Shown: positions 23,364-39,768 of the stretch, one piece after another
How the letters are laid out: each line of letters starts with the position of its first letter
Position numbering within the stretch: position 1 is the first letter of the stretch
From: Streptomyces sp. CA-278952
GTDB lineage: Bacteria; Actinomycetota; Actinomycetes; Streptomycetales; Streptomycetaceae
DNA: 64,000 nt
Direction of reading: 5' to 3'
NCBI RefSeq assembly: GCF_028747205.1
Contig: NZ_CP112880.1
Coordinates: 7,475,501 to 7,539,500, forward strand
The notes under the pieces: generated by a model
The model's input: the letters and a program-made list of their open reading frames with translations, nothing else
Databases searched by the model: none
What the model was told of the DNA's origin: nothing
Position numbers and translations under genes: made by a program

Positions 23364-23439
23364 GGGAGCTCGCCCTCCGCCGACGGCGCCGGCTGTCGAC
23401 TATCCGAGCAGTGTCAGCAGGCTAAGGCGGTGTGCGAGA

Positions 23440-23462: not shown

Positions 23463-23535
23463 GCGCCTGGGTGGGCTCGCGGGGCTCATCGTGATGTGCA
23501 GGGCCGAGGGCGCAGGGCGTCGAGCGGTTGGCGGA

Positions 23536-23568
23536 CCGCTCCCGGCGGGGTGAATCCGCCGGGAGCGG
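23536..23568. terminator. Strong hairpin downstream of the NanA-like/ABC operon
   Basis: CCGCTCCCGGCGG (23536-23548) and CCGCCGGGAGCGG (23556-23568) form a perfect 13-bp stem with a seven-base loop. It is about 150 bases beyond the stop of the leftward NanA-like gene and would separate that operon from glpFK. Confidence 0.75.
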
Positions 23569-23720
23569 ACGGCGGTGACGCTCACCCGATCGGGTGGGAA
23601 GGGCTGAAGCGCGGGCCGGTCAGGACCCCCGCCTCGTCGGCGCGCCCCCGGGGAGCGGTGCGGGCGGACGCGCCCCGGGCCGACGGGGTCGCTGCGGCCC
23701 GCACCTGCTTGCCCCCGGTG

Positions 23721-25663: not shown

Positions 25664-27633
25664 CGGGCGCTCCTTTCCAGTTCCTCGGCGGTCGTCCTGG
25701 CCGGGTGGTGGCAGGCGAAGCCGTGGTCGTCCGTGGTGCCGCGCGGGGTGAGCGCGGGGGCCGTGGTGCGGCAGAGGTCGGTGGCGGCCCCGCAGCGTCC
25801 GGCGAAGCGGCACCCCTCGCCGAAGCCCTGGGGCGCGGGCACGACGCCCCGGATCTGGTGGAGCCGGTCCGCGCCGGCCTCCAGGGAGACGACCGAGCCG
25901 AGGAGGCCGCGGCTGTAGTGGTGGGCGGGCCCGGTGAGGACGGACCGGGTGTCGCCGACCTCGGCGAGCCGGCCCGCGTACATCACGGCGACCCGGTGGG
26001 AGAGGTCGCCGACCAGGGCGAGGTCGTGGGAGACCAGCACCATGGCGAAGCCGAGCTCGTCGCGCAGCCGGATGAGGAGTTCGACGACCTGGGCCTGGAC
26101 GGTGACGTCGAGGGCGGTGGTCGGCTCGTCCGCGATCAGCAGGCGCGGGCTGCGGGAGAGGGCCATGGCGATGAGGACCCGCTGGCGCTGTCCGCCGGAG
26201 AGTTCGTGCGGGTAGCTGCGCAGGGTGCGTTCGGGGGAGAGGCCGACGAGGTCGAGGAGCTCGGCGGGGGTCTTCGTGGAGCCGCGCGAGGTCAGCTGCT
26301 TCAGCTGGGTGCCGACGAGCACGGAGGGGTTGAGGGAGGAGAGCGCGTCCTGGTAGACCATCGCGATCTCGGGGCCCATCAGGGCGCGGCGCTCCTTGGG
26401 CGGGAGCTTCAGCAGGTCCCGGCCCCGGTAGAGGATCTCGCCGCTGACCTCGGCGTTGCGGGCGAGGAGGCCCATGACGGCGAGGCTGGTGATGGACTTG
26501 CCGCAGCCGGACTCGCCGACCAGGCCGAGGGTCTCGCCTTCGTGGACGGTGAAGTTCAGCCGGTCGACGACGGGGATGTCGCCGTAGCGGTCGGGGAAGC
26601 GGATCGCCAGGTCGCGGACGACGAGGAGCTCCTCGGCGTCCTCGCGGACCGGGGTGATGGTGGGCTCGGTGGCGTTGATGTGCCGGGCGAGCTTGGCGAG
26701 GGCGGCGTCGATGTCGACGGTGGCGGCGGCCTCGACCGGGTCGGGCGCCGTGGTGGCGGCGGGCGCGGGGGAGGTGCGGGCGCTCCTGGGCGCGGCGGAG
26801 GCGTCGGTGAGCCCCTCGGAGAGGATGTTGAGCGCGAGGACGGTAATCAGGAGGGCCAGGCCCGGGAAGAAGGTGGCCCACCAGCCGCCGGCCAGGAGGA
26901 TCTGCCGGCCGTAGGCGAGGACGCTGCCCCAGCTGGGGTCGGGGTCCTGCACGCCGGCCCCGATGAAGGAGAGGCTGGCCTCGAAGATGATCGCCTCGGC
27001 GACCATGACGGTGGCGAACACCATGACCGGCGCCATGCAGTTGACGGCGACGTGGCGCAGCACGATGTACCCGCGCCGGGCGCCGATGACCTTCTCGGCC
27101 GCGACGTAGTCCTCGCCGTACTGCGCGAGCACGTTGGCCCGGACGACGCGGGCGAGCGAGGGGGTGTAGACGAAGGCGATGGTGAAGATGATCACCGGGA
27201 CGCTGGTGCCGAACACGGCGACCAGGACGGCCGCGAGGGCGATCGGCGGGAACGACATCACCACGTCGAGCGTCCGCATGACGGACTCGTCGCCGAGCTT
27301 GCGCGAGGTGGCGGCGAGCGAGCCGAGCACAGCGCCGGCGACCAGGGCGACGGCGGTCGCGCCGAGGCCGATGACCAGGGAGTAGCGCGATCCGTGCACC
27401 ACGCGGGCGAAGACGTCACGACCGGCCCGGTCGGTGCCGAACCAGTGGTCGGCGCTGGGGGCCTGGACAGGGGTGCCGGTGGTCAGCGGGTCCTGGGTGA
27501 GGAGAGGGGCGAACACGGCGCCGAGGATGACGACGAGCAGGACGCCGAGGGCGACGCGGGAGGTGACCGGCAGGGCGCGGAACGCGATGCCCGGTCGGGA
27601 GAGCTTCTTGGCCAGACGGCCCGTGGCGAACAT
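25660..27633 (-). CDS. Fused ABC permease-ATPase subunit (DppC-DppD type)
   Basis: The protein has 657 residues and is a natural fusion. Residues 1 to about 290 are a DppC-like permease with six membrane helices; FGTDRAGRDVFARVVHGSR and the GARRGYIVLRHVAVNCM coupling loop are visible. After a proline/alanine linker, residues from about 330 form a DppD-like ATPase with Walker A GESGCGKS, signature LSGGQRQR, Walker B LLIADEP, and a C-terminal cysteine cluster CRFAGRCGAATDLC. Fusion keeps the permease and ATPase at one-to-one ratio. The same arrangement is known for the Corynebacterium sialic-acid importer. It overlaps the next ATPase and follows the partner permease by one base. Confidence 0.93.
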   Translation of the reverse strand: MFATGRLAKKLSRPGIAFRALPVTSRVALGVLLVVILGAVFAPLLTQDPLTTGTPVQAPSADHWFGTDRAGRDVFARVVHGSRYSLVIGLGATAVALVAGAVLGSLAATSRKLGDESVMRTLDVVMSFPPIALAAVLVAVFGTSVPVIIFTIAFVYTPSLARVVRANVLAQYGEDYVAAEKVIGARRGYIVLRHVAVNCMAPVMVFATVMVAEAIIFEASLSFIGAGVQDPDPSWGSVLAYGRQILLAGGWWATFFPGLALLITVLALNILSEGLTDASAAPRSARTSPAPAATTAPDPVEAAATVDIDAALAKLARHINATEPTITPVREDAEELLVVRDLAIRFPDRYGDIPVVDRLNFTVHEGETLGLVGESGCGKSITSLAVMGLLARNAEVSGEILYRGRDLLKLPPKERRALMGPEIAMVYQDALSSLNPSVLVGTQLKQLTSRGSTKTPAELLDLVGLSPERTLRSYPHELSGGQRQRVLIAMALSRSPRLLIADEPTTALDVTVQAQVVELLIRLRDELGFAMVLVSHDLALVGDLSHRVAVMYAGRLAEVGDTRSVLTGPAHHYSRGLLGSVVSLEAGADRLHQIRGVVPAPQGFGEGCRFAGRCGAATDLCRTTAPALTPRGTTDDHGFACHHPARTTAEELERSAR

Positions 27634-27634
27634 G

Positions 27635-28585
27635 TCACACCGTCCTGATGCGCGGATTGACCAGCAGGTAGAGCAGGTCGACGATGACGTTGACCACCAG
27701 GAAGGCGATGGCGATGGTCAGCACGGTGCCCTGGACCAGGGCGACGTCGCCGCCGGTGACACCTTCGAGGATGAGTTTGCCCATGCCGGGCAGGTCGAAG
27801 ATCGCTTCGATGACGACGGCGCCGCTGAGCAGATATCCGACCTTGACGCCGAGCACGGTGAGCGGGGTGACCAGCGCGTTGCGCAGCACCGAGCGGATCA
27901 CCAGGAAGACCGGCAGGCCGTTGCCCTGGGCCGTACGCACGTAGTCGCGGTCGAGTTCGGCGACCATCGAGGTGCGTACGAGCCGGGCGAGCGACGCCGC
28001 GACCGGAACGGCGAGCGACACGGCGGGCAGGGCCATGGTGGTGAGCCAGCCGCTGAAGGAGTCGGCGGGGTTGGTGTAGCCGCCGGTCGGGAAGATCCGG
28101 GTGTTCAGCGCGAACTGCTGGATGAGCAGGACGCCGAGCCAGAACGAGGGGATGGCGACCCCGGCCATGGACAGCAGGCGGAAGAGCTGGTCGGGCCACC
28201 GGTCGCGGTACATCGCGCCCAGGACACCGCCGATCACGGCGAGCGTGACCGCGAGGAACAGCCCGAGGAAGGTCAGTTGGAGGGTGAGCGGGAACGCCGC
28301 GGTGATCCGGTCGATCACGGGCTGGCTCGGCGGGACGGTCATACCGAGGTCGAAGTGGAGCAGTTGGCCGAGGAAGTCGAAGTAGCGGATCGGCAAGGGG
28401 TCGTTGAGCCCGTTGGCCTCCGCGAAGGCCTCCCTGGCCTCAGGACTGGCGCTCTCCCCGAGCGCGTTGTAGGCCGGGTCGGCCGGCGAGAACTGCAGCA
28501 CCACGAAGACCAGCAGTGCGATGCCGAGAATCATCACCGGCATCATCGCGACGCGGCGCAGCGCGAGCCGGAGAAAAGCAACCAT
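27635..28585 (-). CDS. Oligopeptide-type ABC permease (DppB-like)
   Basis: This 316-residue permease has six membrane helices, a large loop after helix 1 (FSPADPAYNALGESASPEAREAF shortened by family standards), and the coupling motif RTAQGNGLPVFLVIRSVLRNAL. The C-terminal VIEAIFDLPGMGKLILEGV is typical of DppB. The ATG at 28585 has AAGGAA seven bases before it; a longer open frame upstream is not supported. It is separated from the binding-protein gene by 130 bases holding a strong hairpin, and its stop is one base before the fused subunit gene. Confidence 0.93.
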   Translation of the reverse strand: MVAFLRLALRRVAMMPVMILGIALLVFVVLQFSPADPAYNALGESASPEAREAFAEANGLNDPLPIRYFDFLGQLLHFDLGMTVPPSQPVIDRITAAFPLTLQLTFLGLFLAVTLAVIGGVLGAMYRDRWPDQLFRLLSMAGVAIPSFWLGVLLIQQFALNTRIFPTGGYTNPADSFSGWLTTMALPAVSLAVPVAASLARLVRTSMVAELDRDYVRTAQGNGLPVFLVIRSVLRNALVTPLTVLGVKVGYLLSGAVVIEAIFDLPGMGKLILEGVTGGDVALVQGTVLTIAIAFLVVNVIVDLLYLLVNPRIRTV

Positions 28586-28634
28586 CGTCGGGTTCCTTGC
28601 GATCGGGCGGAAGGCGGGTCCGGGCCGCCCAGGT

Positions 28635-28682
28635 CCTGTCGTCACACTGCCGCCGCGGGGCAGGCGGCACGGTGACGGCAGG
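28635..28682. terminator. Intra-operon hairpin between binding-protein and permease genes
   Basis: CCTGTCGTCACACTGCCGC (28635-28653) and GCGGCACGGTGACGGCAGG (28664-28682) pair at 16 of 19 positions. Located just after the leftward binding-protein gene, it could protect that mRNA or lower downstream expression. The left side also resembles the terminal repeat of the MITE-like element at 31237. Confidence 0.65.
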
Positions 28683-28715
28683 GCTCAGGAGGTGGCGGCC
28701 CGGACCGGGCGGACG

Positions 28716-30311
28716 TCAGGCGCGGCCGACGCCCACGAAGGACAGGCCCGTGGTGGGCAGGGGCTTGAAGCCGGGCAGGGCCTTGTCGTTCCAGGCCGTG
28801 GGCAGCTTGCGGTGCAGGATCGGGTAGAGCGCGGCCTCATCGGCGACCAGGTCGGTGATCTCGCCCCACAGCTGCCTCCGCGTCGCCTCGTCGGCGGCCT
28901 GGGCGGCCTTGTCGAGGAGCTGCTTGACGTTCTTGTACGCGGGGGAGCCGGACCAGCCGTAGCGCTTCTCCGGCCAGAAGCCGTAGTAGAACCAGCGCAT
29001 CAGGAGGTCGACGTCGTTGCCGAAGACCGAGGGGTCGCCCGGGGCCACCATGACGTCAAAGTCCCCGCCGTCGACCTTGGCGTACTGGGCGGCGGACTGG
29101 GCGATGTTCAAGGTGGCCTCGATGCCGGCCGCCGCCCAGCTCTCCTTGAGCAGCGGGGCGATGTCCTTGACCCAGCCGGTGTCCGTGGTCAGCACGGTGA
29201 ACTTCAGCTCGCCCACGCCCGCGTCGGCCAGCAGCTTCTTCGCCTTCGCCACGTCGTGGGTGTAGGCGGTGGCGGCCTGGTGGTAGTCGGGGTGGGTGGT
29301 GGGGACATAGCCGGTGGCGGCCGTCGCGTTGCCGACCATCGCGGTCTTGATGATCTTCTCGGTGTCCAGGGCGTAGTGCAGGGCCTGGCGCACCCGCTTG
29401 TCGGCGAAGCGCTTGTCGGCCGTGTTGAACATCAGGAAGAGAAGGCCGAAGGACTGCACGGACTCGGTCTTCGTGGTGGCGGAGAGCCGTTGGACGTCGA
29501 TGTACGGGACGTCCTCGATCGCCTGGACGCGACCGGACTCCATGGCGCTGACGCGGGCCGACTGGTCCGACATCAGGCGCCAGACCATCTTCTGGGCCTT
29601 GGCCGGGTGCGGGCCGTTGTACTTCGCGTACTTCTCGAAGACGATCTTGTCCTCGCGGGTCGCCTCGACGAACCGGTACGGCCCCGAGCCGACGGGCTTG
29701 GCGTCGAAGCCCTTGACGTCCGCCTCGACGACCTTCTTGGGCACGATCCGTGCCACGGCTATCCGGGAGGGGAAGAGCGCGAAGGCGTAACGGAGCTTGA
29801 ACTCGACCGTCTTCGCGTCGACCGCCGTGACCGTGTCGACGAACGGCACGAACTGCGCCATCAGCGACGCGTTCTTCTCGTCCAGGATGCGTTCGAAGCT
29901 GAACACGACGTCCTCGGCGGTGACCGGTGAGCCGTCGTGGAAGGTCGCGCCGTCGCGCAGGGTGGCGCGGTAGGTGGTGGCGTTGATCTTCTTCGGCATC
30001 TCGGTGGCGAGCGCGGGGCGCGCCACGAGTGTTGCGGGATCGAGATCCACGAGTCCCTCGAAGATGTGCATATTGGCGGCGTACGGGGTGGCGCCCGACG
30101 TGATCATCGGATCGAATCCGGTCGAGAGGGGGTACGACAGACCCGCCTCGATGGTGCCGTTGCCGTCGCCCTTCGCGGCCGCTCCGTCGGCGGTCGAGGA
30201 GGGCCCGCCGCAAGCCGAGAGGCCTGCCGTGATGGCGGCTGCCGCGCCGAGGGCACTGGTGTAACGCAGAAAGGTGCGGCGCTCGACGCCGGCTGGCCTC
30301 AGCTCGGGCAC
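28716..30311 (-). CDS. Extracellular solute-binding lipoprotein, family 5 (peptide/sialic-acid type)
   Basis: This 531-residue binding protein is of SBP family 5. Its signal sequence has a twin-arginine-like ERRTFLRY and a lipobox LSAC (Cys34), so it may be a Tat-exported lipoprotein. The mature part has the family hallmarks YRATLRDGATFHDGSPVTAEDVVFSFER and RVRQALHYALDTEKII. Family 5 mostly binds peptides or nickel, but members serve sialic acid in H. ducreyi and C. glutamicum, and the gene neighbourhood points that way. It is the first gene of the importer operon and starts 80 bases from operator A. The unusually long gap to the permease contains a hairpin. Confidence 0.92.
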   Translation of the reverse strand: MPELRPAGVERRTFLRYTSALGAAAAITAGLSACGGPSSTADGAAAKGDGNGTIEAGLSYPLSTGFDPMITSGATPYAANMHIFEGLVDLDPATLVARPALATEMPKKINATTYRATLRDGATFHDGSPVTAEDVVFSFERILDEKNASLMAQFVPFVDTVTAVDAKTVEFKLRYAFALFPSRIAVARIVPKKVVEADVKGFDAKPVGSGPYRFVEATREDKIVFEKYAKYNGPHPAKAQKMVWRLMSDQSARVSAMESGRVQAIEDVPYIDVQRLSATTKTESVQSFGLLFLMFNTADKRFADKRVRQALHYALDTEKIIKTAMVGNATAATGYVPTTHPDYHQAATAYTHDVAKAKKLLADAGVGELKFTVLTTDTGWVKDIAPLLKESWAAAGIEATLNIAQSAAQYAKVDGGDFDVMVAPGDPSVFGNDVDLLMRWFYYGFWPEKRYGWSGSPAYKNVKQLLDKAAQAADEATRRQLWGEITDLVADEAALYPILHRKLPTAWNDKALPGFKPLPTTGLSFVGVGRA

Positions 30312-30390
30312 GGGTCCTCCAAGGGACGTTGGTGAGGAATGGGTGGAGAACGGATTTTCGAAGGCTATCGGGACGCCTGTGCGGCGGGAG

Positions 30391-30413
30391 CATCAGACGT
30401 CAGATGTCTGATG
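30391..30413. promoter_or_regulatory. GntR-type operator A (sialic-acid regulon motif)
   Basis: CATCAGAC at 30391-30398 and GTCTGATG at 30406-30413 are perfect 8-bp inverted arms. The core AGACGTCAGATGTC (30395-30408) recurs in two other promoter regions of the cluster. The site lies between the divergent binding-protein gene and the first GntR gene. The rest of the 164-base gap (30312-30475) holds the two promoters, which were not resolved further. Confidence 0.8.
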
Positions 30414-30475
30414 CCTTGATAGCGTGGGAACGTAGCTTGACAATCGAGAGGGGTCAAGAGGTGGGGAGTTCACCT

Positions 30476-31207
30476 ATGTCCGGCGCGAGACCCGGTCGCA
30501 CCCTGCTGCGGCAGGAGGTCGTCGAGGGCATCAAGCGGTACATCCTCGACGAACGGCTGCGCCCGGGGGACCCGTTGCCGACGGAACCGGCCCTGTGCGA
30601 GGCGCTCGGCGCCAGCCGCTCCAGCGTCCGGGAGGCCGTCAAGATCCTCGCCGCCCTCGACATCGTCGAGGTCCGTCACGGCCACGGGACGTACGTCGGA
30701 CGGCTGAGCCTGTCGGCGCTGGTGGAGAGCCTCACCTTCCGGGGCCTGCTCTCGCCCGACGACGACTTCCAGGTGATGGCCGACCTCGTCGACGTGCGCG
30801 AGCTCTTCGAGCGGGGCATGGCCGACCGGATCATCTCCTCGCTGGACGCCGGGGAGCTGGACCGGCTGGACGGCCTGGTGGCGACCATGCGCGAGACCGG
30901 TGTGGGCGACGGGCACGGCTTCGTCGCGGCGGACCGGGCCTTCCACGCGCTGCTCGTGGCGCCGCTCGGCAACGACCTGATCGGTCAGCTCTCGATGGCC
31001 TTCTGGGACGTCTACACGATCGTCGCGCCGCATCTGCAGGGGTTCACGCACGCCGACGAGGCGGAGACCGTCGCCGCCCACCAGAACATCGTGGACGCGG
31101 CCCGCGCGGGCGACGTCACCGCGTTCCTGAAGGCCCTCGGCGAGCACTACGCCCCGGTCAGACGCCGGATCGCCGAGGCCAGGGCGCGAGGTGGGGGCGA
31201 GGGCTGA
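30476..31207 (+). CDS. FadR-subfamily GntR transcriptional regulator, first copy
   Basis: This 243-residue regulator has a GntR winged helix (residues 10-75: LLRQEVVEGIKRYIL, LPTEPALCEALGASRSSVREAVKIL, VEVRHGHGTYVG) and an all-helical FCD/FadR ligand domain. The FCD metal-ligand pattern includes an aspartate/histidine set around FVAADRAFHALLV and ETVAAHQNIVDAA. The ATG at 30476 has GGGGAG seven bases upstream. It is divergent from the importer operon across operator A and is the likely NanR-like controller, sensing sialic acid or an intermediate. A second related regulator at 34.1 kb raises the question of which one binds the shared motif. Confidence 0.9.
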   Translation: MSGARPGRTLLRQEVVEGIKRYILDERLRPGDPLPTEPALCEALGASRSSVREAVKILAALDIVEVRHGHGTYVGRLSLSALVESLTFRGLLSPDDDFQVMADLVDVRELFERGMADRIISSLDAGELDRLDGLVATMRETGVGDGHGFVAADRAFHALLVAPLGNDLIGQLSMAFWDVYTIVAPHLQGFTHADEAETVAAHQNIVDAARAGDVTAFLKALGEHYAPVRRRIAEARARGGGEG

Positions 31208-31236
31208 TCGCGGCCGCCGCCCTCCTGCCCGGCCCT

Positions 31237-31415
31237 CTAGGTCCTGTCGTCAAACTCCCGTCGTCGCCCGGAGGGCGGCCCTGCGGGGTCAGGTGCGTGC
31301 TCTCGGTGTGCCGGGCGCACGTCCGCGTACTGGACGTACTCGGGCGTGGGCCCGGTGCGGCGAGAGTGCGTGCATGGCGCCGCGGGGCAGATGGGAGTTT
31401 GACGACAGGGCCTAG
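31237..31415. mobile_element. MITE-like element with 23-bp terminal inverted repeats
   Basis: The ends CTAGGTCC... (31237-31259) and ...GGCCTAG (31393-31415) are inverted repeats matching at 22 of 23 positions, with common core CCTGTCGTCAAACTCCC. Both ends finish in CTAG, which fits insertion into a CTAG/TA target. The 133-base interior has no open reading frame of note, so it is a non-autonomous remnant, probably of an IS5-like element. It sits between the first GntR gene and the esterase promoter. Confidence 0.8.
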
Positions 31416-31485
31416 GCGAGGGCGTGGGGCGGCCCGGCTCTTGACGGGCGGCCCCACGGCTCCCTACGGTCTGGTTTGCCATCAG

Positions 31486-31499
31486 GACATCTGACGTCT
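31486..31499. promoter_or_regulatory. GntR-type operator B upstream of esterase-sialidase genes
   Basis: GACATCTGACGTCT is the exact reverse complement of the 14-bp core of operator A. It stands 44 bases before the esterase start codon, within a larger imperfect dyad CAGGACA (31483-31489) to TGTCCTG. It should place the esterase and sialidase genes under the same regulator as the importer. Confidence 0.8.
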
Positions 31500-31542
31500 T
31501 CTGTCCTGTCGCTTTCCTCGTCCCCTCCAGGAGGGCACCGCC

Positions 31543-32541
31543 ATGCCGTCGGCCGATCTCACGCTCGCGGAATGCCGCGCCTACCGGCCCGAACTGCCGC
31601 TTCCCGACGGGTTCGACGCCTTCTGGTCCGACACCCTGGACGAGAAGGGCCCCGGCGGCGCACCGGACCGGCGACCCCGGTTCGACGAGGTCGACAGCGG
31701 CCTGGTCCAGGTCCGCTGTTACGACGTGAGCGTCCCGGGCTACGACGGCCGTCCCGTACGGGGGTGGCTGCGGATGCCGGCCGGTGCCACCGGGCCGCTC
31801 GGCTGCGTCGTGGAGTTCCTCGGGTACGGGCGCGGCCGGGGCCTGGCCCACGAGCAGCTCATGTGGGCCTGCGCCGGATACGCGCACCTGGTCATGGACA
31901 CCCGCGGCCAGGGCTGGTCCTCGGCGACCGGCTCGACCCCCGACACGGACCCGGGATCGGCCGGCGCCGTGCCGGGCTTCCTGACGCGGGGCGTCGAGAG
32001 CCCCGGAACGCACTACTACCGGCGGGTGTTCACCGACGCGGTCCGCTGCGTGCAGGCGATGCGCGAGCACCCCGAGGTCGACCCCGCCCGCATCGTGGTG
32101 ACCGGGGTCAGCCAGGGCGGAGGCATCGCGCTGGCCGTGGCCGGGCTCGTGCCGGGGCTCGCCGGAGTGATGCCGGACGTGCCGTTCCTGTGCAACATCC
32201 CCCGGGCCGCACGGATCGCCGCGACACCCCCGTACACCGAGATCGCCGCCTACCTCCGGCTCCACCGCGACCGCGTCGAGCCGGTGTTCCGCACCCTGGC
32301 GTACTTCGACGGGGCCCACCACGCCACCCGGGCCACCGCCCCGGCGCTGTTCTCCATCGCGATGGCGGACGACATCTGTCCGCCCTCCACCTGCTTCACG
32401 GCCTACAACCGGTACACGGGCCCCAAGGAGGTGCGCGTCTACGAGTTCAACGGGCACGAGGGCGGCGCCGAACACCACCGGGCCGAACAACTGGCCTGGG
32501 TGCGCGCCCTGTTCGCCGGCCTCCCGGCCGAAAGCTCCTGA
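31543..32541 (+). CDS. CE7-family (acetylxylan/cephalosporin-C-type) esterase
   Basis: This 332-residue alpha/beta-hydrolase has the CE7 signature RGQGWS (residues 121-126) and nucleophile elbow GVSQGGG (Ser190). The acid is Asp276 in ADDICPPS and the base His305 in GHEGG. CE7 enzymes remove acetyl groups from sugars. In this cluster, removal of O-acetyl groups from sialic acids before cleavage or uptake is an attractive inference. No secretion signal is seen, so it would act inside the cell. The ATG at 31543 has AGGAGG eight bases upstream. The sialidase gene starts 51 bases after its stop. Confidence 0.9.
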   Translation: MPSADLTLAECRAYRPELPLPDGFDAFWSDTLDEKGPGGAPDRRPRFDEVDSGLVQVRCYDVSVPGYDGRPVRGWLRMPAGATGPLGCVVEFLGYGRGRGLAHEQLMWACAGYAHLVMDTRGQGWSSATGSTPDTDPGSAGAVPGFLTRGVESPGTHYYRRVFTDAVRCVQAMREHPEVDPARIVVTGVSQGGGIALAVAGLVPGLAGVMPDVPFLCNIPRAARIAATPPYTEIAAYLRLHRDRVEPVFRTLAYFDGAHHATRATAPALFSIAMADDICPPSTCFTAYNRYTGPKEVRVYEFNGHEGGAEHHRAEQLAWVRALFAGLPAESS

Positions 32542-32592
32542 ACTCCGACCGCTTGGTCCGCACGTCTCCCCTCACGAGAAGAGAGATCGTCC

Positions 32593-34032
32593 ATGCAGCG
32601 CAGAGTCACCGTCGCCATGCTGTCCGCCGCCCTCCTGGTGGCCACCACCGCCGGCACCGCCCACGGCGCACCGGCCGCCGCCCCCGGCGAACTGACCTCG
32701 AAGGACATAGCGACCCAGGGCGTCGGATCCCCCCACTACCGCATCCCCGCGCTCACCACCTCCGTCAAGGGCACGGTGATCGCCGCCTACGACACCCGCC
32801 CCACGCTCGGCGACCTCCCCGGCAATCTCGGCGTCGTCGTACGCCGCAGCACCGACGGCGGCACCACCTGGGGGGGCCAGCAGGTCGTCCGCAAGGAGGC
32901 GGCCCCCAAGGGCTTCGGCGACCCCAGCCTCCTCGTGCACCGCACGACCGGCCGGATCTTCGTCTTCTACGCGGGCTCCGTCAACCAGGGCTTCTTCGGC
33001 TCGGCCACCGGCAACGACGAGAGCGACCCGGACATCCTCCAGGCCGACTACAGCTACTCGGACGACGACGGCGTCACCTGGACCCACCGCCGCATCACCC
33101 AGCAGATCAAGAACCCCGCCTGGGCCGGTATGTTCGCGGCCTCCGGCGAAGGCATCCAGGTGCGCCACGGCGCGTACAAGGGCCGGCTGATCCAGCAGTA
33201 CGCCATCCGGAACAACGGCGCCAACTACGCCGTCAGCGCCTACAGCGACGACCACGGCGCTACCTGGGAGATGGGCACCCCGGTCGGCCCGGGCGGCGAC
33301 GAGAACAAGACCGTCGAGCTCAGCGACGGCCGGATCATGCTCAACAACCGCTCCGCGCCCTACCGGACCGTCGCGTACTCCAGCGACGGCGGTGTCACCT
33401 ACACGCCGTTCACCCAGGACACCAACCTGCGCGACCCGGCGAACAACGGCTCGATCATCCGGTACGCACCGGACGTGCCGGCCTCCCATCCCCAGGCGTC
33501 GTGGCTGCTGTTCAGCAACACGGACAGCACCTCGCGGAAGAACCTCACCGTGAAGATGTCCTGCGACAACGGGAAGACCTGGCCGATCAAGAAGGTCGTC
33601 AACCCCGACAGCGCCGCCTACTCGACGCTGACCCGGCTGCCGGACGGCCGGCTCGGACTGCTCTACGAGCGCGCCGACTACCGGCACATCACCTACTCCT
33701 CGTTCGACCTGAAGTGGCTCGGCGGCACCTGCGCGGACATCACCATCACGCCCCCGGCCACGCTGAAGGCGGGGACGGCCACCGAGGTGACCGTGCGGGT
33801 GGTCAACCGGATGGACGTCACCCGCAACGCGGGCACGCTCGACCTGACCGTGCCCGGCGGCTGGACGACCCGCCAGGTGGCGTTCCCGGCGCTCAGGCCC
33901 GGGGAGGGGGCGAACATCAAGGTCCCGGTCACGATCCCGGCGGGCGCGTCCGGCACCGCCGGACTGACGGCCACCTACAGGGCCGACGGCAAGCAGGCGT
34001 CCGGAACCCGGTCGGTGACCGTGACCCCGTAA
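32593..34032 (+). CDS. Secreted exo-alpha-sialidase (GH33)
   Basis: This 479-residue secreted sialidase has a signal peptide (about 1-25, ending AHG-AP). The six-bladed propeller carries YRIP with Arg50 and five Asp-box sequences (STDGGTTW, SDDDGVTW, SDDHGATW, SSDGGVTY, CDNGKTW). By spacing with Micromonospora NedA, the catalytic set is Asp74 acid/base, Glu242 and Tyr343 nucleophile pair, with Arg50, Arg258 and probably Arg315 binding the carboxylate. A C-terminal Ig-like domain (about 385-479) may bind galactose-rich glycans or the cell wall. It releases terminal sialic acid outside the cell for the importer. It is convergent with the second GntR gene. Confidence 0.95.
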   Translation: MQRRVTVAMLSAALLVATTAGTAHGAPAAAPGELTSKDIATQGVGSPHYRIPALTTSVKGTVIAAYDTRPTLGDLPGNLGVVVRRSTDGGTTWGGQQVVRKEAAPKGFGDPSLLVHRTTGRIFVFYAGSVNQGFFGSATGNDESDPDILQADYSYSDDDGVTWTHRRITQQIKNPAWAGMFAASGEGIQVRHGAYKGRLIQQYAIRNNGANYAVSAYSDDHGATWEMGTPVGPGGDENKTVELSDGRIMLNNRSAPYRTVAYSSDGGVTYTPFTQDTNLRDPANNGSIIRYAPDVPASHPQASWLLFSNTDSTSRKNLTVKMSCDNGKTWPIKKVVNPDSAAYSTLTRLPDGRLGLLYERADYRHITYSSFDLKWLGGTCADITITPPATLKAGTATEVTVRVVNRMDVTRNAGTLDLTVPGGWTTRQVAFPALRPGEGANIKVPVTIPAGASGTAGLTATYRADGKQASGTRSVTVTP

Positions 34033-34042
34033 CCGCCCCGGG

Positions 34043-34082
34043 CCTGAGGGCTGTCCGCCGGAAAGTGCGGGCAGCCCTCAGG
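34043..34082. terminator. Bidirectional terminator between sialidase and GntR genes
   Basis: A 16-bp stem with one G-U pair, CCTGAGGGCTG... at 34043-34058 and its complement at 34067-34082, lies between the convergent stops. Its right arm covers the stop codon of the leftward GntR gene. Confidence 0.75.
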
Positions 34083-34767
34083 GCCGCTCCAGACGGGAGC
34101 GGATGCCGTCGAAGTGGGCGCGCATCGCCGACGCCGCCCGGGCCCCGTCGCCCGCCGCCACCGCCGCGACGATCGCGTGGTGCTGGGCGCACGTGACGCC
34201 GGGGTCCTGGTGGCCGTCGTCCGTGCTGGCGCGCACCCCGTCCATCGCCGCCCAGAACGCGTCCAGCACCTCGCTGAGCAGGTGGTTGTCGAGCGAGGCG
34301 TAGAGCGCCAGATGGAAGGCGCGGTCGGTCGCCCGGGCGACCCGGCCGTCCCGGGCGGCCTCGGCCTCCATCGTGGCGACCAGCCTCCGCAGCACCGCCA
34401 GGTCCTCGGCGGGAATGCCCGCGCTGACGGCGCCGACCAGCCCGGTCTCCAACGCCTCGCGCACCTTCATCAACTCCAGCAGCCCCGGCTCGCCCCGGCC
34501 GTGCCGCACGACCGCCCGGAAGGCCAGGCCCTCGGCGAAGGGTGTCAGCGAGAGCGAGCCGACGAAGGTGCCGAAGCCCCGTCGGATCTCCACGACGTTC
34601 ATGGCCTGCAGCGCCTTGAGCGCCTCGCGCACCGAGACCCGCCCGGCGGCGAACAGCTCCATCAACTCGGGCTCGGTGGGCAGCGGATCTCCCGGGCCGA
34701 GCGCCCGGGCGAGGATGAGTTCCCTGATCCTCCGTTCGATGTCCTGCGCCATGGTGGGGCGGGCCAC
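34078..34767 (-). CDS. FadR-subfamily GntR transcriptional regulator, second copy
   Basis: This 229-residue regulator has an N-terminal winged helix (MAQDIERRIRELILA, LPTEPELMELFAAGRVSVREALKAL, VEIRRGFGTFVG) and an FCD ligand domain with DRAFHLALYASLDN and AQHHAIVAAVAAGD. The GTG at 34767 has AGGAGG six bases ahead; the open frame extends further but over the promoter. It is divergent from the aldolase-kinase-epimerase operon across operator C. It resembles the first GntR protein in layout, so the two may share the operator motif or recognise variants of it. Confidence 0.9.
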   Translation of the reverse strand: MARPTMAQDIERRIRELILARALGPGDPLPTEPELMELFAAGRVSVREALKALQAMNVVEIRRGFGTFVGSLSLTPFAEGLAFRAVVRHGRGEPGLLELMKVREALETGLVGAVSAGIPAEDLAVLRRLVATMEAEAARDGRVARATDRAFHLALYASLDNHLLSEVLDAFWAAMDGVRASTDDGHQDPGVTCAQHHAIVAAVAAGDGARAASAMRAHFDGIRSRLERP

Positions 34768-34842
34768 AACCGTCCTCCTGAGGTGTCGTCGGCCGCCGCG
34801 ACCTCTTGACCGGCCGCCGGGGCATCGGCTTAAGCTAAGCCG

Positions 34843-34863
34843 GACGTAAGACATCTTACGTCT
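34843..34863. promoter_or_regulatory. GntR-type operator C upstream of the aldolase-kinase-epimerase operon
   Basis: GACGTAAGACATCTTACGTC (34843-34862) has perfect 9-bp arms with a two-base centre. Read on the minus strand, 34863-34850 is AGACGTAAGATGTC, one mismatch from the operator A and B core. It lies between the second GntR gene and the second NanA-like gene. Confidence 0.82.
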
Positions 34864-34939
34864 CATGTCCTGGTCTCGTCCTCACCTTCGGGCGAACGGC
34901 GAAAGACCGGCGTTCCGAGCGAGCTGGAGCTCTTCCACC

Positions 34940-35899
34940 ATGTCCCTGACCGCACCGCTGCGCGGCGTCGTACCGCCGGTCTGCACTCCGCTCGACGACC
35001 GGGGCGAGGTCGACACGGCCTCCCTCACCCGGCTCGTCGGTCACCTCGTCGACGGCGGCGTACACGGCCTCTTCGCCCTCGGTTCGACCAGCGAGGTCGC
35101 CTACCTGACCGACGCCCAGCGCGCCACCGCCCTGAGGACCGTCGTCACCGCCGCCGCCGGACGGGTCCCCGTACTGGCCGGGGTCATCGACACCACGACC
35201 CCCCGGGTGCTCGCCCACGCCAGGACCGCCGCGGAACTGGGCGCCGACGCCCTCGTCGCGACGGCGCCCTTCTACACCCGCACCCACCCCACCGAGATCG
35301 CGCGGCACTTCCGGGGGCTGCGCGCGGGCGTCGACCTGCCGCTGTTCGCCTACGACATCCCGGTCGCCGTGCACTGCAAGCTCTCCGCCGCCCTGGTCCG
35401 CGAACTGGCCGGGGACGGCACTCTGGCCGGCCTCAAGGACAGCAGCGGCGACGAGGGCGGTCTGCGCGGACTCGTCGTCGCGCTCGGCGGACGCGAGGGC
35501 CGGGCACGGGGCCCCGCGCCGCACTTCAGCGTGCTGACCGGATCCGAACTCACCGTGGACGCGGCCCTGCTGGCCGGAGCCGACGGCGTCGTCCCCGGGC
35601 TCGGCAACGTCGATCCGGCCGGCTACGTACGGCTGTACGACGCCGCGCGAGCGGGGGACTGGGCGCTCGCCGCCCGCGAACAGGAGCGGCTCGTCGAGCT
35701 GTTCGCCATGGTCGACGTCGGCCCCGAGCAGGAGATGGGCCGCAGCTCGTCGGCGCTCGGAGCCTTCAAGGAGGCGCTGCGGCTGCTCGGCGTCATCGAC
35801 CGAGGCGCCACCGCCTTCCCGCAGATCCCGCTGTCCGCCGCGGCCGTCGCATCCGTCGCGGAGCGGCTGCGCGGCGCCGGTCTGCCGCCGGTCCGATGA
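34940..35899 (+). CDS. DapA/NanA-family aldolase (probable N-acetylneuraminate lyase), copy 2
   Basis: This 319-residue barrel aldolase is paralogous to the one at 23.7 kb. The catalytic tyrosine is Tyr138 in YDIP and the Schiff-base lysine Lys166 in GLKDSSG. The carboxylate loop reads GSTSE where most lyases have GSTGE or GTTGE, a change that could alter substrate choice. The ATG at 34940 has GGAGC upstream; an earlier in-frame ATG at 34865 would run through the operator. It overlaps the ROK kinase gene (ATGA) and leads the aldolase-kinase-epimerase operon, so cleavage of sialic acid to ManNAc and pyruvate is the likely job. Confidence 0.88.
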   Translation: MSLTAPLRGVVPPVCTPLDDRGEVDTASLTRLVGHLVDGGVHGLFALGSTSEVAYLTDAQRATALRTVVTAAAGRVPVLAGVIDTTTPRVLAHARTAAELGADALVATAPFYTRTHPTEIARHFRGLRAGVDLPLFAYDIPVAVHCKLSAALVRELAGDGTLAGLKDSSGDEGGLRGLVVALGGREGRARGPAPHFSVLTGSELTVDAALLAGADGVVPGLGNVDPAGYVRLYDAARAGDWALAAREQERLVELFAMVDVGPEQEMGRSSSALGAFKEALRLLGVIDRGATAFPQIPLSAAAVASVAERLRGAGLPPVR

Positions 35900-36852
35900 A
35901 CGGGCTGACGACCGGGCCGACGACCGGAGTTGTGGTCATCGGCCTCGACCTCGGGGGCACGAAGATCGCGGCGGCCCTCTTCGCCCCCGACGGCGAGGCG
36001 CTGGCCCGGCACACCCGGGCCACCCCCGCCCGGGACGGCGCCGCCGCCGTGCTCGACGCGCTCGCCGCTGCGGCGGCCGAGGTCGACCCCGACGGCCTGG
36101 CCTCCCTGGTCGGCATCGCCGCCGCCGGGGTCGTCGACCCCCGCAGCGGCATGGTCACCAGCGCCACCGACTCCATCCGGGGCTGGGCCGGCACCGCCCT
36201 CGGCACCGGCCTCGCGAACCGTACGGGCCTGCCGGTGGCCTGCGACAACGACGTGCGCGCCACAGCGGGACCCGAACTCGCCGCCCTGGCCGGCAGCCAC
36301 GGTTCGCTGCTGTACGCGGCCGTCGGCACGGGGGTGGGCGGCGCCCTCGCCGTCGACGGGCGGATGCTGCACGGCGCCGCCGGAATCGCCGGCCACCTCG
36401 GCCATCTGCCCAGCGCCGAGGCGGCCGGACTGCCCTGCACCTGCGGCGCCACCGGACACCTGGAGGTCATCGCCTCCGGCCCGGGCATCGCCGCCCACTA
36501 CGCACGGCTCACCGGCACCCGGCCCGACCGGCTCGAAACGGTCGCCGCCCGGGCCGCCGCAGGCGAGCAGGCTGCCGTACGGGCCATCACCACCGGTGCG
36601 ACGGCGGCCGGCCGGGTCCTCGGCGGCCTGGCCAACGCCCTCGGCCCCGACCGGGTCGTCGTCGGCGGCGGGGTCCCCCGTATCGGCGCGCTGTACCGCT
36701 CCGCGCTGGCCACGGCCTTCGCCGCCGAACTGATGCCGCCCCTGCGGGGACTCCTCCCCGAACCCCCGCTCCACGGCGCGGACGCCGCCGTACGGGGCGC
36801 GGCGGCCCTGACCGCCACCCTTCCCCTCCACCGTCCGGGAGCTCACCGATGA
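35896..36852 (+). CDS. nanK: ROK-family sugar kinase (probable N-acetylmannosamine kinase)
   Basis: This 318-residue ROK kinase has the phosphate loop GLDLGGTK (16-23), catalytic aspartate in CDNDVRA (Asp119) and the second phosphate region GTGVGGALAVDG. The ROK zinc motif is present in altered form: histidine in GHLGH, then PCTCGATGH, where the usual third cysteine (GC) is replaced by histidine. Position between a NanA-like lyase and NanE, with four-base overlaps on both sides, identifies ManNAc as the probable substrate. Glucokinase-type activity cannot be ruled out from sequence alone. Confidence 0.88.
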   Translation: MNGLTTGPTTGVVVIGLDLGGTKIAAALFAPDGEALARHTRATPARDGAAAVLDALAAAAAEVDPDGLASLVGIAAAGVVDPRSGMVTSATDSIRGWAGTALGTGLANRTGLPVACDNDVRATAGPELAALAGSHGSLLYAAVGTGVGGALAVDGRMLHGAAGIAGHLGHLPSAEAAGLPCTCGATGHLEVIASGPGIAAHYARLTGTRPDRLETVAARAAAGEQAAVRAITTGATAAGRVLGGLANALGPDRVVVGGGVPRIGALYRSALATAFAAELMPPLRGLLPEPPLHGADAAVRGAAALTATLPLHRPGAHR

Positions 36853-37562
36853 ACGCACAGGATCTGGCCACCGCACTCCGGGGCCGTCTGATCGTCTCCT
36901 GCCAGGCGCCCCCCGGGGACCCGATGCGGGAGACCGCCACCCTCGTCCGCCTCGCGCTCGCGGCGGCCGCCGGCGGCGGCGCCGCGATCCGCGCCAACGA
37001 ACCGGAGGTCGTCGCCGCGATCGTGGCGGCGGTGGACCTGCCGGTCATCGGCCTGTGGAAGGACGGAGACACCGGGGTGTACATCACCCCGACCGTCCGG
37101 CACGCCCTGGCCGTCGCCGCGTCGGGCGCCGCCGTGGTCGCCGCCGACGCCACCGACCGGCCGCGTCCGGACGGTTCCACCTTCGCCGAGCTCGTCGCCG
37201 CCGTCCACGCGGCGGGGGCCCTCGTCATGGCCGACGTCGCCACCCTCGCGGAGGGGATCGCCGCCGCCGGACAGGGCGCGGATTTCGTCTCCACCACCCT
37301 GTCCGGCTACGTGCCGGGGACCTCGAAGCAGACCGGGCCGGATCTGGACCTCGTGGCGTCCCTGTCGGCCGCGGTCTCCGTACCCGTCGTCGCCGAAGGG
37401 CGCGTCAACACCCCCGAGGAGGCCGCCGAGGCGCTCGCCCTGGGGGCCCACAGCGTCGTGGTCGGCACCGCCATCACCGCACCCACCGCCCTGACCGCCC
37501 GCTTCGCCGCCGCACTGGCATCCGAACCGGGCGGCGGCGCGGGCGAAACCGCTCGGGGCTGA
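36849..37562 (+). CDS. nanE: N-acetylmannosamine-6-phosphate 2-epimerase
   Basis: This 237-residue TIM-barrel protein of the NanE family converts ManNAc-6-phosphate to GlcNAc-6-phosphate. Family features are LIVSCQAPPGDPMRET at the start, AAIRANEPEVV, VIGLWKDGDTGVYITPT, VMADVATLAEG and VVAEGRVNTPEEA, which supplies the conserved lysine and glutamates. The ATG at 36849 overlaps the kinase stop. Product entry into central metabolism needs NagA and NagB, which are not in the window. It is the last gene of the operon. Confidence 0.93.
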   Translation: MNAQDLATALRGRLIVSCQAPPGDPMRETATLVRLALAAAAGGGAAIRANEPEVVAAIVAAVDLPVIGLWKDGDTGVYITPTVRHALAVAASGAAVVAADATDRPRPDGSTFAELVAAVHAAGALVMADVATLAEGIAAAGQGADFVSTTLSGYVPGTSKQTGPDLDLVASLSAAVSVPVVAEGRVNTPEEAAEALALGAHSVVVGTAITAPTALTARFAAALASEPGGGAGETARG

Positions 37563-37640
37563 ACCGGCAGGCGGCTGCCCACCGGTCGCGCCCCACCCCG
37601 CCTCGGGGGCGCGACCACCGGTCTGAGACGCTGTCCGGCA

Positions 37641-37713
37641 CCTGACCAGGTGTTCCGTCCGTCGGCCGCCCACCGAAACCTGACCAGGTGTTCCGTCCGT
37701 CCGGCGCCCACCG
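37641..37713. repeat. Two 35-bp direct repeats upstream of the AEC permease
   Basis: The unit starting CCTGACCAGGTGTTCCGTCC occurs at 37641-37675 and 37679-37713, a 38-bp step, with two differences near GGCCGCC/CGGCGCC. A short third start, CACCTGATCC, follows. Each unit with its preceding base contains a near-palindrome ACCTG-AC-CAGGT. Placement directly before the AEC gene suggests operator copies. Confidence 0.75.
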
Positions 37714-37738
37714 CACCTGATCCACCCGCAAGGAAGAC

Positions 37739-38665
37739 ATGCAGGGAGTCCTCACCGGCTTCACGGTGATCGCCACCGTCATCGCCGTCGGGTACGTCAT
37801 AGGCCGCCGCGGATATCTGGGACAGGACGGCCGCACCGTGCTGACCCGGCTGGCCTTCAACGTGGCGACCCCGGCCCTGCTCTTCACCATGCTCGCGGGC
37901 GCGGACCTGTCCGTCGTCCTGTCGACACGCCTCCTGGTCACGGCGACGGCCACGGCCGCCGCGGCCGGAGTCTTCGTCGTGGTGGCCGGGCTCTTCCTGC
38001 GCTGGGACGCCGGACGGGTCACCATCGGCGCCCTGTGCTCCAGTTACGTCAACGCCGGGAATCTGGGCATCCCCATCGCCGTCTACGTCCTCGGGGACGC
38101 CTCGCTCGTCGCCCCGGTGCTGCTCCTCCAGCAGATCGTGGTGACCCCGCTGGCCCTGACCGTCCTCGACCTCGGCCGCCCCGGAGAACCGGTCTCGGTC
38201 CTCCGGCGGCTGACCACCCCGCTGCGCAACCCGATGGCGATCGGATCGCTGGCCGGTGTCGCCGTGGCCGCGTCCGGCCTGACCCTGCCCGGACCCCTGC
38301 TGGAGCCGCTCGTCCTCATCGGCAACATGTCGGTCCCCGCGGTCCTCCTCGCCTTCGGGATATCCCTGTACGGCGGCGAGCGTCCGGGCCGGGGGGAGGA
38401 CCGGGTCGCGCTGTACCTGTCCGCCCTCCTGAAGACGGTCGCCCAGCCGGTCGTCGCCTGGGCCGTCGGCGCCGGGCTGTTCGGGCTGCGGGGCGAGGCC
38501 CTGCTGGCCGTCGTCGTGATCGCGGCTCTGCCGGCCGCCCAGAACCTCTTCACGTACGCCTCGCACTACGGGGTCGCCGAGCGGTTCGCCAGGGAGTCGA
38601 TCCTGCTGTCCACCCTGCTCTCGGTCCCGGTGCTGATCGCCGTCGCCGCGCTGCTCGGGCCGTAG
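37739..38665 (+). CDS. AEC-family permease
   Basis: This 308-residue membrane protein has ten predicted helices. It is of the auxin-efflux-carrier family, with LTRLAFNVATPALLFTMLAGADL in the first half and the repeated-half feature LLEPLVLIGNMSVPAVLLAFGISLYG in the second. Bacterial members export or import organic acids such as malate or malonate. The ATG at 37739 has GGAAG before it. It lies 176 bases after nanE behind a pair of direct repeats, so it may be separately controlled. A role with the sialic-acid genes, for example pyruvate movement, is only speculation. Confidence 0.88.
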   Translation: MQGVLTGFTVIATVIAVGYVIGRRGYLGQDGRTVLTRLAFNVATPALLFTMLAGADLSVVLSTRLLVTATATAAAAGVFVVVAGLFLRWDAGRVTIGALCSSYVNAGNLGIPIAVYVLGDASLVAPVLLLQQIVVTPLALTVLDLGRPGEPVSVLRRLTTPLRNPMAIGSLAGVAVAASGLTLPGPLLEPLVLIGNMSVPAVLLAFGISLYGGERPGRGEDRVALYLSALLKTVAQPVVAWAVGAGLFGLRGEALLAVVVIAALPAAQNLFTYASHYGVAERFARESILLSTLLSVPVLIAVAALLGP

Positions 38666-38733
38666 CCCCCGACCCGGTACCGGGTGTGGCGCAGACCACT
38701 CCCGGATGAGAACCCGGGGGCCCCGCCCCGTGA

Positions 38734-38763
38734 CGGCGGCGTTCCTGCTCCGGAACGCCGCCG
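38734..38763. terminator. Bidirectional hairpin terminator
   Basis: A perfect 12-bp stem, CGGCGGCGTTCC at 38734-38745 and GGAACGCCGCCG at 38752-38763 with a six-base loop, lies between the convergent AEC and betaine-binding-protein genes. Confidence 0.8.
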
Positions 38764-38826
38764 GGCTGGCCGGTCTCGCCGCGCCCGGGGCCGTCGCCGG
38801 GAGCGTCCCGGCCCCGCCGGTCGCGG

Positions 38827-39759
38827 CTACTTCGTGATGCCGTGCTCCGCCGCCCAGTCGTTCGCGACGTCCTCGGGGTCCTGCCGGTCCTTGTCCACCA
38901 GGCGGTTGAGCTCGGTGAGGTCCTTGGTCGTCAGTACGGCCCCGAGGCGGGCGAGCGCCTTGCGGACCGTCGAGTCGGCCTTGCGGTCGGCGATGAGCGG
39001 AACGACGTGCTGGCCGGGGATCAGGTTCTTGGGGTCGGTGAGGACGACCCAGCCCTCGGCGGCGATGTCGGTGTCGGTGGTGAAGAGGTTCGCCACGTCC
39101 ACGTCGCCCTTCTTGAGGGCTCCCTTGACCAACGGGCCCGAGGAGTCGAGGGACTTGAACTCCTTGAACTCCACGCCGTACACGTCCTTGAGGCCCACCG
39201 AGCCCACCGTGCGCTTCTTGACCTCGGGGGCCGCGCCGATGACGAGCTTGCCGTTGTGCCGCGCGAGGTCGGCCAGGGACTTCAGACCGTACTCCTCGGC
39301 GGTCTCCTTGGTCACCGCGAAGGCGTCGGCGTTCTCCGCCTCGCCGTACGGGAGGATCTGGAGGCCGCGCGGCAGGAGCATCGCCAGGGCGTTCTGCATC
39401 GTGCCCTCCTCGGTGGCCGTGGCCTCGGCGTCGAGGTAGTGCAGCAGCGCGCCCTGGTACTCGGGCAGCAGATCGATGTCCCCGCCCTTCAGCGCGGGGA
39501 TGAGGATCTCGCGGGTGCCCAGGTTGGGGCGGACCTTCGTCTTCACCCCGGAGGCTTCGAGCGTCGCGGCGTAGAGGTACCCGAGGACCTGGTTCTCGGT
39601 GAAGTTGGCGGTGCCGATGGTGACGCCGCCCTCGCTGGAGCCCCCGCCCCCGCCGCCGGCCCCCTCCCCGTCGAGGGAGGTGATGCCGCCGCCGCACGAG
39701 GCGAGCGCGGGGACGGTGGCGGCGGCGAGGAGTCCGCCGAGGAGGTTTCTGCGGTTCAT
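38827..39759 (-). CDS. Glycine betaine/carnitine/choline ABC binding lipoprotein (OpuCC/OsmF type)
   Basis: This 310-residue binding protein has a lipobox LASC (Cys22) and a glycine/serine linker. The quaternary-amine fold follows: VTIGTANFTENQVLGYLYAATLEASG, DIDLLPEYQGALLHYL and DVDVANLFTTDTDIAAEGWVVL. It should capture betaine-like osmolytes for the two permeases. The gene is last in a leftward ATPase-permease-permease-binding protein operon; the upstream permease ends nine bases before it. Confidence 0.92.
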   Translation of the reverse strand: MNRRNLLGGLLAAATVPALASCGGGITSLDGEGAGGGGGGSSEGGVTIGTANFTENQVLGYLYAATLEASGVKTKVRPNLGTREILIPALKGGDIDLLPEYQGALLHYLDAEATATEEGTMQNALAMLLPRGLQILPYGEAENADAFAVTKETAEEYGLKSLADLARHNGKLVIGAAPEVKKRTVGSVGLKDVYGVEFKEFKSLDSSGPLVKGALKKGDVDVANLFTTDTDIAAEGWVVLTDPKNLIPGQHVVPLIADRKADSTVRKALARLGAVLTTKDLTELNRLVDKDRQDPEDVANDWAAEHGITK

Positions 39760-39768
39760 GGGGGGCTC

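Follow-up and report, generated by a model that had tools for sequence, protein, structure and literature searches.

The window analyzed here, a 64,000-nucleotide stretch of the Streptomyces sp. CA-278952 genome, contains a predicted sialic acid (nan) catabolic cluster, recognized as such by the joint presence of NanE, a ROK-family kinase, a NanA-type lyase, a sialidase and an importer (Table 1). The lyase and the kinase were assigned by family alone, with scores under their equivalog cut-offs. The two aldolases of the cluster are 58% identical, similar to the 55 to 57% identity given in the available part of PMC8754123 for a second nanA in seven Streptomyces species. The same source reports fadR in 226 of 234 nan clusters of Actinomycetia, and no description of an operator or promoter was found in the part available.

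Table 1. Genes, operators and predicted promoters of the cluster (positions in the window)
Feature	Position	Strand	Remarks
Aldolase 1	23721–24656	-	DHDPS family
Importer, second ATPase	24656–25663	-	by reading and comparison
Importer, permease-ATPase fusion	25660–27633	-	by reading and comparison
Importer, permease	27635–28645	-	by reading and comparison
Importer, binding protein	28716–30311	-	family 5, SatA-like; near 5z99
Operator A surroundings	30390–30414		25-nt palindrome between importer operon and GntR1
Operator A core dyad	30396–30408		GACGT-CAG-ATGTC
GntR1 -10	30420–30425	+	predicted; TAGCGT; its -35 would be covered by operator A
Importer promoter	30429–30457	-	predicted; TTGACC-N17-TACGTT; operator A begins 20 nt past -10
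GntR1, FCD-GntR regulator	30476–31207	+	ATG at 30476 read from sequence; searches used 30479–31207
Esterase-sialidase promoter	31441–31470	+	predicted; TTGACG-N18-TACGGT; operator B begins 15 nt past -10
Operator B core dyad	31486–31498		GACAT-CTG-ACGTC; upstream of esterase-sialidase
Esterase	31543–32541	+	AXE1 family
BNR sialidase	32593–34032	+	near 1eut
GntR2, FCD-GntR regulator	34078–34752	-	possible GTG start a few codons upstream
Aldolase 2 operon promoter	34806–34836	+	predicted; TTGACC-N19-TAAGCT; operator C core begins 13 nt past -10
Operator C, four boxes	34843–34869		GACGT-2-GACAT-3-ACGTC-2-ATGTC; between GntR2 and aldolase 2
Operator C core dyad	34850–34862		
Aldolase 2	34940–35899	+	DHDPS family
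Kinase	35896–36852	+	ROK family
NanE, ManNAc-6-phosphate epimerase	36849–37562	+	above NCBIfam cut-off

GntR1 and GntR2 are assigned to the FadR subfamily of GntR regulators; in both, the Pfam GntR (N-terminal winged helix) and FCD (C-terminal) domains score above the curated cut-offs. The two proteins are 43% identical over 165 residues and differ at three positions that contact bases in FadR: across the compared loci, GntR1 has S (33 of 33), S (33 of 33) and H (32 of 33), whereas GntR2 has G (18 of 19), V (19 of 19) and R (19 of 19). Searching this genome with GntR2 at E 1e-25 matched no protein besides GntR1 and GntR2.

The sequence-only reading had placed one motif exactly in front of the importer/GntR pair and, inverted, before the esterase-sialidase genes, with a one-mismatch copy ahead of the aldolase-kinase-epimerase operon. 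All three sites were recovered, the exact copies at 30395–30408 (+) and 31486–31499 (-), and the variant, AGACGTAAGATGTC, at 34850–34863 (-). AGACGTMAGATGTC occurs exactly at three places in the whole 8.21-Mb genome, every one of them in this cluster, with 1 place at one mismatch and 15 at two, and a reversed control pattern has six places at up to two mismatches. Counting at up to three mismatches within the window is no better than chance (7 seen versus 5.4 expected, with at least 7 in 34 of 100 shuffles) and was dropped as evidence; the signal resides in the exact copies. The pattern GACRTCWKAYGTC has only four places in this genome, namely, A, B, C and a probable coding match. The one-mismatch place (G000:C1:2440002) was rejected as a fourth member of the regulon; it is probably a coding match, because it extends over what looks like the start codon of an unrelated gene, in a context found again in L107, L111, L114 and L115. 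No FCD-GntR gene lies within the 6 kb surrounding a dyad at 7271323 of the same genome.

Comparison with 36 related nan loci defines the core unit as the 13-bp dyad GACRT-NNN-AYGTC. When orthologous sites are aligned, A, B and C have a common axis at the center of this dyad, and alternative symmetry axes lie 3.5 bp off it, on one or both sides. The earlier description of A and C as strong palindromes holds (12-nt arms, 92% complementary, and 9-nt arms, 100% complementary, respectively), with strongest axes that differ; B is also an imperfect palindrome, with overlapping 16-nt arms (81%). The even-centered dyad TCAGAYRTCTGA was tried as the basic unit and rejected: A is the only place where the genome has it in exact form, the overlapping dyad at a distance of 7 bp in A departs from it by one mismatch, and neither B nor C appears when a single mismatch is allowed. 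Rfam models gave no match at the gathering score over positions 22000–40000.

The comparison within the genus comprised 36 loci from 39 other nanE-positive genomes, with G147, G116 and G050 excluded (gene at a contig end or a fragment). Of the 33 loci with GntR1, 29 have a perfect dyad at A; B is perfect in 27 of 28 loci, and C is perfect in 21 of 28, among them all 19 that have GntR2. Perfect dyads number 83 in the 704,890 bases compared, and 79 of them sit at A, B or C positions. The center is CAG or CTG in 55 of the 56 A and B dyads and CTT in 18 of the 21 C dyads; one GntR2 locus, L071, has CTG at C. Thus, the mismatch that the sequence-only reading saw at C is present but is not noise: the conserved center parallels the fixed differences between GntR1 and GntR2, which makes C an operator sub-type rather than a degenerate copy. 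Loci with GntR1 but without GntR2 retain A and B, indicating that the roles of the two regulators are not equivalent. Eight genomes have a C-type dyad without a GntR2 ortholog (CTT-centered in six), and three of these (G161, L206 and L210) encode a paralog with 54 to 58% identity. In a second set of 80 GntR1 loci, which overlaps the first set in species and so is not independent of it, the perfect dyad is missing at A in 14. Outside the genus, 20 loci from 36 nanE-positive genomes were compared, and in 10 of the 20 loci no FCD-GntR gene was found within reach. A perfect dyad lies upstream of six of the eight nan-linked FCD-GntR genes with the GntR1-type S,S,H residues; the best dyads in L168 and L170, both with S,S,H, have two mismatches and one mismatch, respectively. 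The GntR1-type operator, GACRTCWGAYGTC, also occurs in nan clusters from two or more further families of actinobacteria.

Promoter-like elements were located with a simple pattern devised for this analysis, TTGAC-N17..19-TAnnnT, which is found ahead of all 27 perfect B dyads and all 21 perfect C dyads; at randomly drawn positions it was seen in 180 of 40,000 cases, and upstream of genes other than these in 40 of 3,938. The B and C dyads follow these predicted promoters, as expected of repressor sites.

The conservation of the sites, their position at promoters and their linkage to FCD-GntR genes strongly support A, B and C as a common operator for the promoters of the cluster, very probably read by its GntR-type repressors. 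From these features, all read from sequence, together with the parallel differences between sites and regulators, we infer binding, repression, an inducer and the identity of the protein acting at C. The account considered likely is that GntR1 is the main regulator at A and B, and probably at C, with GntR2 as an extra local repressor at C. Bound at A, GntR1 would block the promoter of its own gene as well as the importer operon that runs divergently from it; at B, it would block the esterase-sialidase operon; and, probably, it would also act at C on the aldolase-kinase-epimerase operon. GntR2 would be an added repressor of that operon and of itself. With the protein sitting just past a -10 element, or on the -35 element of gntR1, RNA polymerase would be halted; binding of a sialic acid metabolite by the FCD domain would free the repressor. 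Consistent with this account are the conservation of the three sites, the promoter-like elements, the retention of A and B in loci with GntR1 only, the genomes with C but no GntR2 ortholog, the S,S,H-linked dyads outside the genus, and the apparent fit of the core, RTM-N-KAY, to the FadR-subfamily consensus NyGTM-N0-1-KACNy, for which the part of PMC4494728 that was available also gives additional half-sites 7 to 12 nt from the site center. Against it count the paralog in three genomes, which could act at C, the imperfect dyads of L168 and L170, and the GntR1 loci that lack a perfect A.

Also counting against this account, the conserved difference at C together with the three contact-position differences favors separate targets. 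A strict division, in which GntR1 acts on A and B only and GntR2 on C only, with the dyad center and the contact residues (S,S,H in one protein, G,V,R in the other) separating them, draws on this near-complete partition of centers and residues and on the presence of C in every GntR2 locus; it is nevertheless rather unlikely, given the C-type dyads, mostly CTT-centered, in genomes without a GntR2 ortholog and the CTG center in L071. The opposite extreme, full redundancy, has a precedent in Corynebacterium glutamicum, where GntR1 and GntR2, according to the accessible text of PMC2230225, are functionally redundant and share one binding site in gluconate metabolism. There, as here, two FCD-GntR proteins, one operator set and one catabolic pathway occur in an actinobacterium, and A, B and C do have a core dyad in common; however, the limited identity of the present pair, its fixed contact-position differences and the split of the operators into two sub-types, in which it differs from the C. 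glutamicum pair, make it improbable that each protein reads all three sites.

Beyond the nan clusters, GACRTCWKAYGTC is found in 35 of 40 nanE-positive genomes of the genus but also in 108 of 206 nanE-negative ones. The earlier claim that the motif defines a regulon from sequence alone therefore survives as a shared operator, on the grounds given above, but not as one specific to sialic acid. Among 38 non-nan places, chosen from the matches listed with CAT-centered ones skipped and hence not a random sample, 7 are directly upstream of another FCD-GntR gene, and the other 31 have no FCD-GntR gene in the stretch. That other FCD-GntR proteins act at A, B and C, or that the nan regulators act widely elsewhere, is nonetheless highly improbable, considering the few places of GACRTCWKAYGTC in this genome and the GntR2 search that matched only the two cluster regulators.

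A more far-reaching reading, a two-tier nan switch, is offered tentatively. An older GntR1 might run uptake and the sialidase, and GntR2, with altered contact residues, might have been added at the catabolic operon in one Streptomyces lineage, the two proteins competing or co-assembling at an operator with four boxes, whose half-sites are phased at 7 bp. If so, import and breakdown would respond to different metabolites.

The proposed system resembles that of Escherichia coli NanR, as described in the available part of PMC8012715, in the linkage of an FCD-GntR protein to sialic acid genes, the multiple half-site repeats per operator and the repression. In contrast to the (GGTATA)3 direct repeats bound by NanR, however, the operators here consist of the dyad with 7-bp phased boxes. 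The 32-residue N-terminal extension of NanR is also lacking: the GntR domain begins at residue 11 of GntR1, as searched, and at residue 2 of GntR2. At 96.9 and 104.7 bits, both proteins score far below the cut-off of the NCBIfam NanR model (NF003011; 260), which is nonetheless the best-scoring model for each. Compared with the FadR-subfamily operators in the same part of PMC4494728, the flanks are GAC/GTC rather than TKGT/ACMA, and AT often replaces AC in one half. HypR of Streptomyces coelicolor, a FadR-subfamily repressor whose operon includes a DHDPS-family enzyme, differs in its motif, CTNTGC(A/C)ATGTCAC, and in its pathway, as far as the accessible text of PMC6608401 indicates. Among the matches listed in the library of open papers searched, judged by title and the start of the abstract, no prior description of a Streptomyces nan operator was found, and searches with the operator strings returned unrelated papers only.

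The control system is of an ordinary kind. For sialic acid use in free-living Streptomyces, the analysis yields an operator that can be put to the test, along with predicted promoters and a pair of candidate repressors. The paired regulators and operator sub-types also provide a fitting case for the divergence of DNA recognition among related GntR proteins within one cluster. Finally, the operator hints at further members, such as a gene for a GDSL esterase with a lectin-like domain in the relative L057.

The sequence-only reading had claimed that one operator motif stands at three promoters of the sialic-acid (nan) region, and all three copies were borne out, the third with the single mismatch ascribed to it (see table). 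A scan of the 8.21-Mb genome found AGACGTMAGATGTC at exactly three places, namely A, B and C; inexact matches comprise one place with one mismatch and 15 with two, and a reversed control pattern gave 6 places at ≤2 mismatches. The one-mismatch place was taken as coding because an unrelated gene apparently has its start codon there, in a context repeated in four fetched relatives. A related dyad, GACATTCCACGTC or its complement, occurs at five places in this genome (G000:C1:1822914, 4270277, 4536429, 5004967, and 7046364).

Features of the nan cluster, with positions in the window
Feature	Position	Strand	Remarks
Operator A	30395-30408	+	AGACGTCAGATGTC
Operator B	31486-31499	-	AGACGTCAGATGTC
Operator C	34850-34863	-	AGACGTAAGATGTC
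Importer operon		-	from A; ends in DHDPS-family aldolase (aldolase 1)
GntR1		+	other side of A
AXE1-family esterase, BNR sialidase			downstream of B
GntR2		-	divergent from aldolase 2 around C
Aldolase 2, ROK kinase, NanE		+	divergent from GntR2 around C
Conserved stretch	~30409-30475		operator A to GntR1 start
175-bp element	31239-31413		between GntR1 and promoter B
17-bp exact inverted repeats	31243-31259, 31393-31409		ends of the 175-bp element

The assignment of the cluster to sialic acid is well supported by the similarity of the importer binding protein to PDB 5z99, which is the Neu5Ac-bound SatA of Haemophilus ducreyi (PMC11364026), and of the sialidase to PDB 1eut, with the caveat that neither the lyases nor the kinase reach the NanA and NanK equivalog cut-offs. 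Identity between the two aldolases is 58%, in agreement with the second nanA copy reported in seven Streptomyces species (PMC8754123).

The epimerase NanE was detected in 40 of the 246 sampled genomes of the genus, and the window was compared with 36 of the other 39 loci. The element common to these loci is the dyad GACRT-NNN-AYGTC, which is found in perfect form 5' of GntR1 (A) in 29/33 loci, of the esterase or sialidase (B) in 27/28, and of aldolase 2 (C) in 21/28. C is present wherever GntR2 is (19 of 19 loci); the seven loci that lack C carry GntR1 but not GntR2, with aldolase 2 in line behind the sialidase. Of the 83 perfect dyads in 704,890 bases, 79 occupy A, B or C positions and one falls within a mapped gene. 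The 80 named loci that have a GntR1 relative show a perfect dyad 66 times at A, 62 times at B and 17 times at C, a site often outside the 5-kb flank. The operator set of the sequence-only reading is real.

A TTGAC-like box and TAnnnT, 17 to 19 nt apart, precede all 27 B and all 21 C dyads, which start 12 to 15 nt past the -10 in 45 of the 48 sites and 3 or 8 nt past it in the remaining three. Over a wide search range, 180 of 40,000 random positions had such a promoter-like pair, as did 40 of 3,938 positions in front of other genes; over the 12- to 15-nt range, the counts fell to 8 and 4, respectively. The predicted importer promoter is TTGACC-N17-TACGTT, with dyad A 20 nt after it, and the -35 belonging to the predicted GntR1 -10, TAGCGT, would be covered by the same dyad. 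At these predicted promoters, the dyad placement is a repression geometry. From operator A to the GntR1 start, the sequence is almost unchanged in most species with both regulators, more so than a plain leader would need; it contains a pair of promoter-like elements in opposite orientations and gave no Rfam match.

Within the window, the best palindrome at each of A, B and C is centred on a different axis; the aligned orthologous sites agree on a central axis and have others 3.5 bp from it, the pattern that half-sites recurring at 7-bp intervals on the two strands should give. Site C is the fullest multi-box case, its outer two boxes matching GACRT at a mean of 4.55 and 4.85 of 5 positions (A, 3.0 and 3.7; B, 1.65 and 3.5). 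In its core, RTM-N-KAY, the dyad agrees with the FadR consensus GTM-N0-1-KAC; extra half-sites have also been described for the FadR subfamily (PMC4494728).

The dyad centre is CAG or CTG in 55 of 56 perfect dyads at A and B and CTT in 18 of 21 at C, so that C, correctly described as a one-mismatch copy, is a distinct sub-type and not a mere variant. Residues Thr44, Thr46, and His65 are among the DNA contacts of FadR (PMC4494728). At the equivalent positions in our alignment, GntR1 orthologues have S (33/33), S (33/33), and H (32/33), and GntR2 orthologues G (18/19), V (19/19), and R (19/19). Twelve paralogues from other loci (L138 to L149) have N at the middle position; the dyad 5' of them is perfect in four (centre AGG in L139 and L145, GGG in L141 and L149) and has one mismatch in four (AGG; L142 to L144 and L146), and none was found 5' of L138, L140, L147, and L148. 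A centre other than CAG/CTG thus accompanies other contact residues, although independent cases are few and FCD-GntR regulators with L at the middle position retain CAG. One group of the latter residue type (L099, L108, L110, L112, and L135) has tandem, 7-bp phased dyads just upstream.

A C-type dyad is present in eight genomes that lack a GntR2 orthologue of more than 58% identity (G066, G161, S. naganishii [L069/L245], L199, L206, L207, L210, and L250), with the centre CTT in six and CAG or CTG in two. This persistence suggests that GntR1 acts at C too. Conversely, a 54 to 58% identical paralogue in G161, L206, and L210 might act at C, and G066 appears to be a recent loss. In this close relative (locus L050), GntR2 and aldolase 2 are lost, ∼11 kb of other sequence lies in their place, and dyad C is kept upstream of the kinase gene. 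The best reading is that GntR1 would be the common regulator of the nan cluster and GntR2 a local addition.

In a class-wide sample, NanE was detected in 39 of 394 genomes, 36 of them outside the genus; 20 of the 36 were read. Ten of these 20 nan loci have an FCD-GntR gene within reach, with S, S, H at the contact positions in eight. A perfect CAG/CTG dyad lies upstream of six of the eight (five from one family and a sixth from another), the best dyads of L170 and L168 having one and two mismatches; upstream of L161 and L165, which lack S, S, H, a perfect dyad is absent. Within the genus, GACRTCWKAYGTC occurs in 143 of 246 genomes (35/40 with NanE and 108/206 without), and of 38 selected non-nan places, 7 have another FCD-GntR gene immediately downstream. 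Such occurrences mark the motif as a putative FCD-GntR operator type, which acts here as a candidate sialic-acid operator by its linkage within the cluster. The proposed regulon is mostly right once three points are amended, namely the specificity of the motif (not unique to sialic acid), the status of C (a separate sub-type), and the roles of the regulators (GntR1 probably shared, GntR2 added locally). The kind of control system is well known. A, B and C are putative operators predicted from sequence; no earlier description of a Streptomyces nan operator was found in a literature search of open papers, titles, and abstract starts.

In another nan locus (L057:8396), a second B-type dyad precedes a gene (8406-9848; comparable gene, L055:9672-10982) for a GDSL esterase with an N-terminal concanavalin/laminin-G-like domain weakly similar to chains 6er2 to 6er4, a possible further regulon member in relatives. 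Finally, the 175-bp element resembles a small non-autonomous transposable element, further copies of which, full or partial, occur in the genome (79% identity over 175 bp and 93% over 81 bp). The distance from GntR1 to the esterase gene is 339 bp in the window but 163 and 175 bp in L050 and L051, both close relatives.
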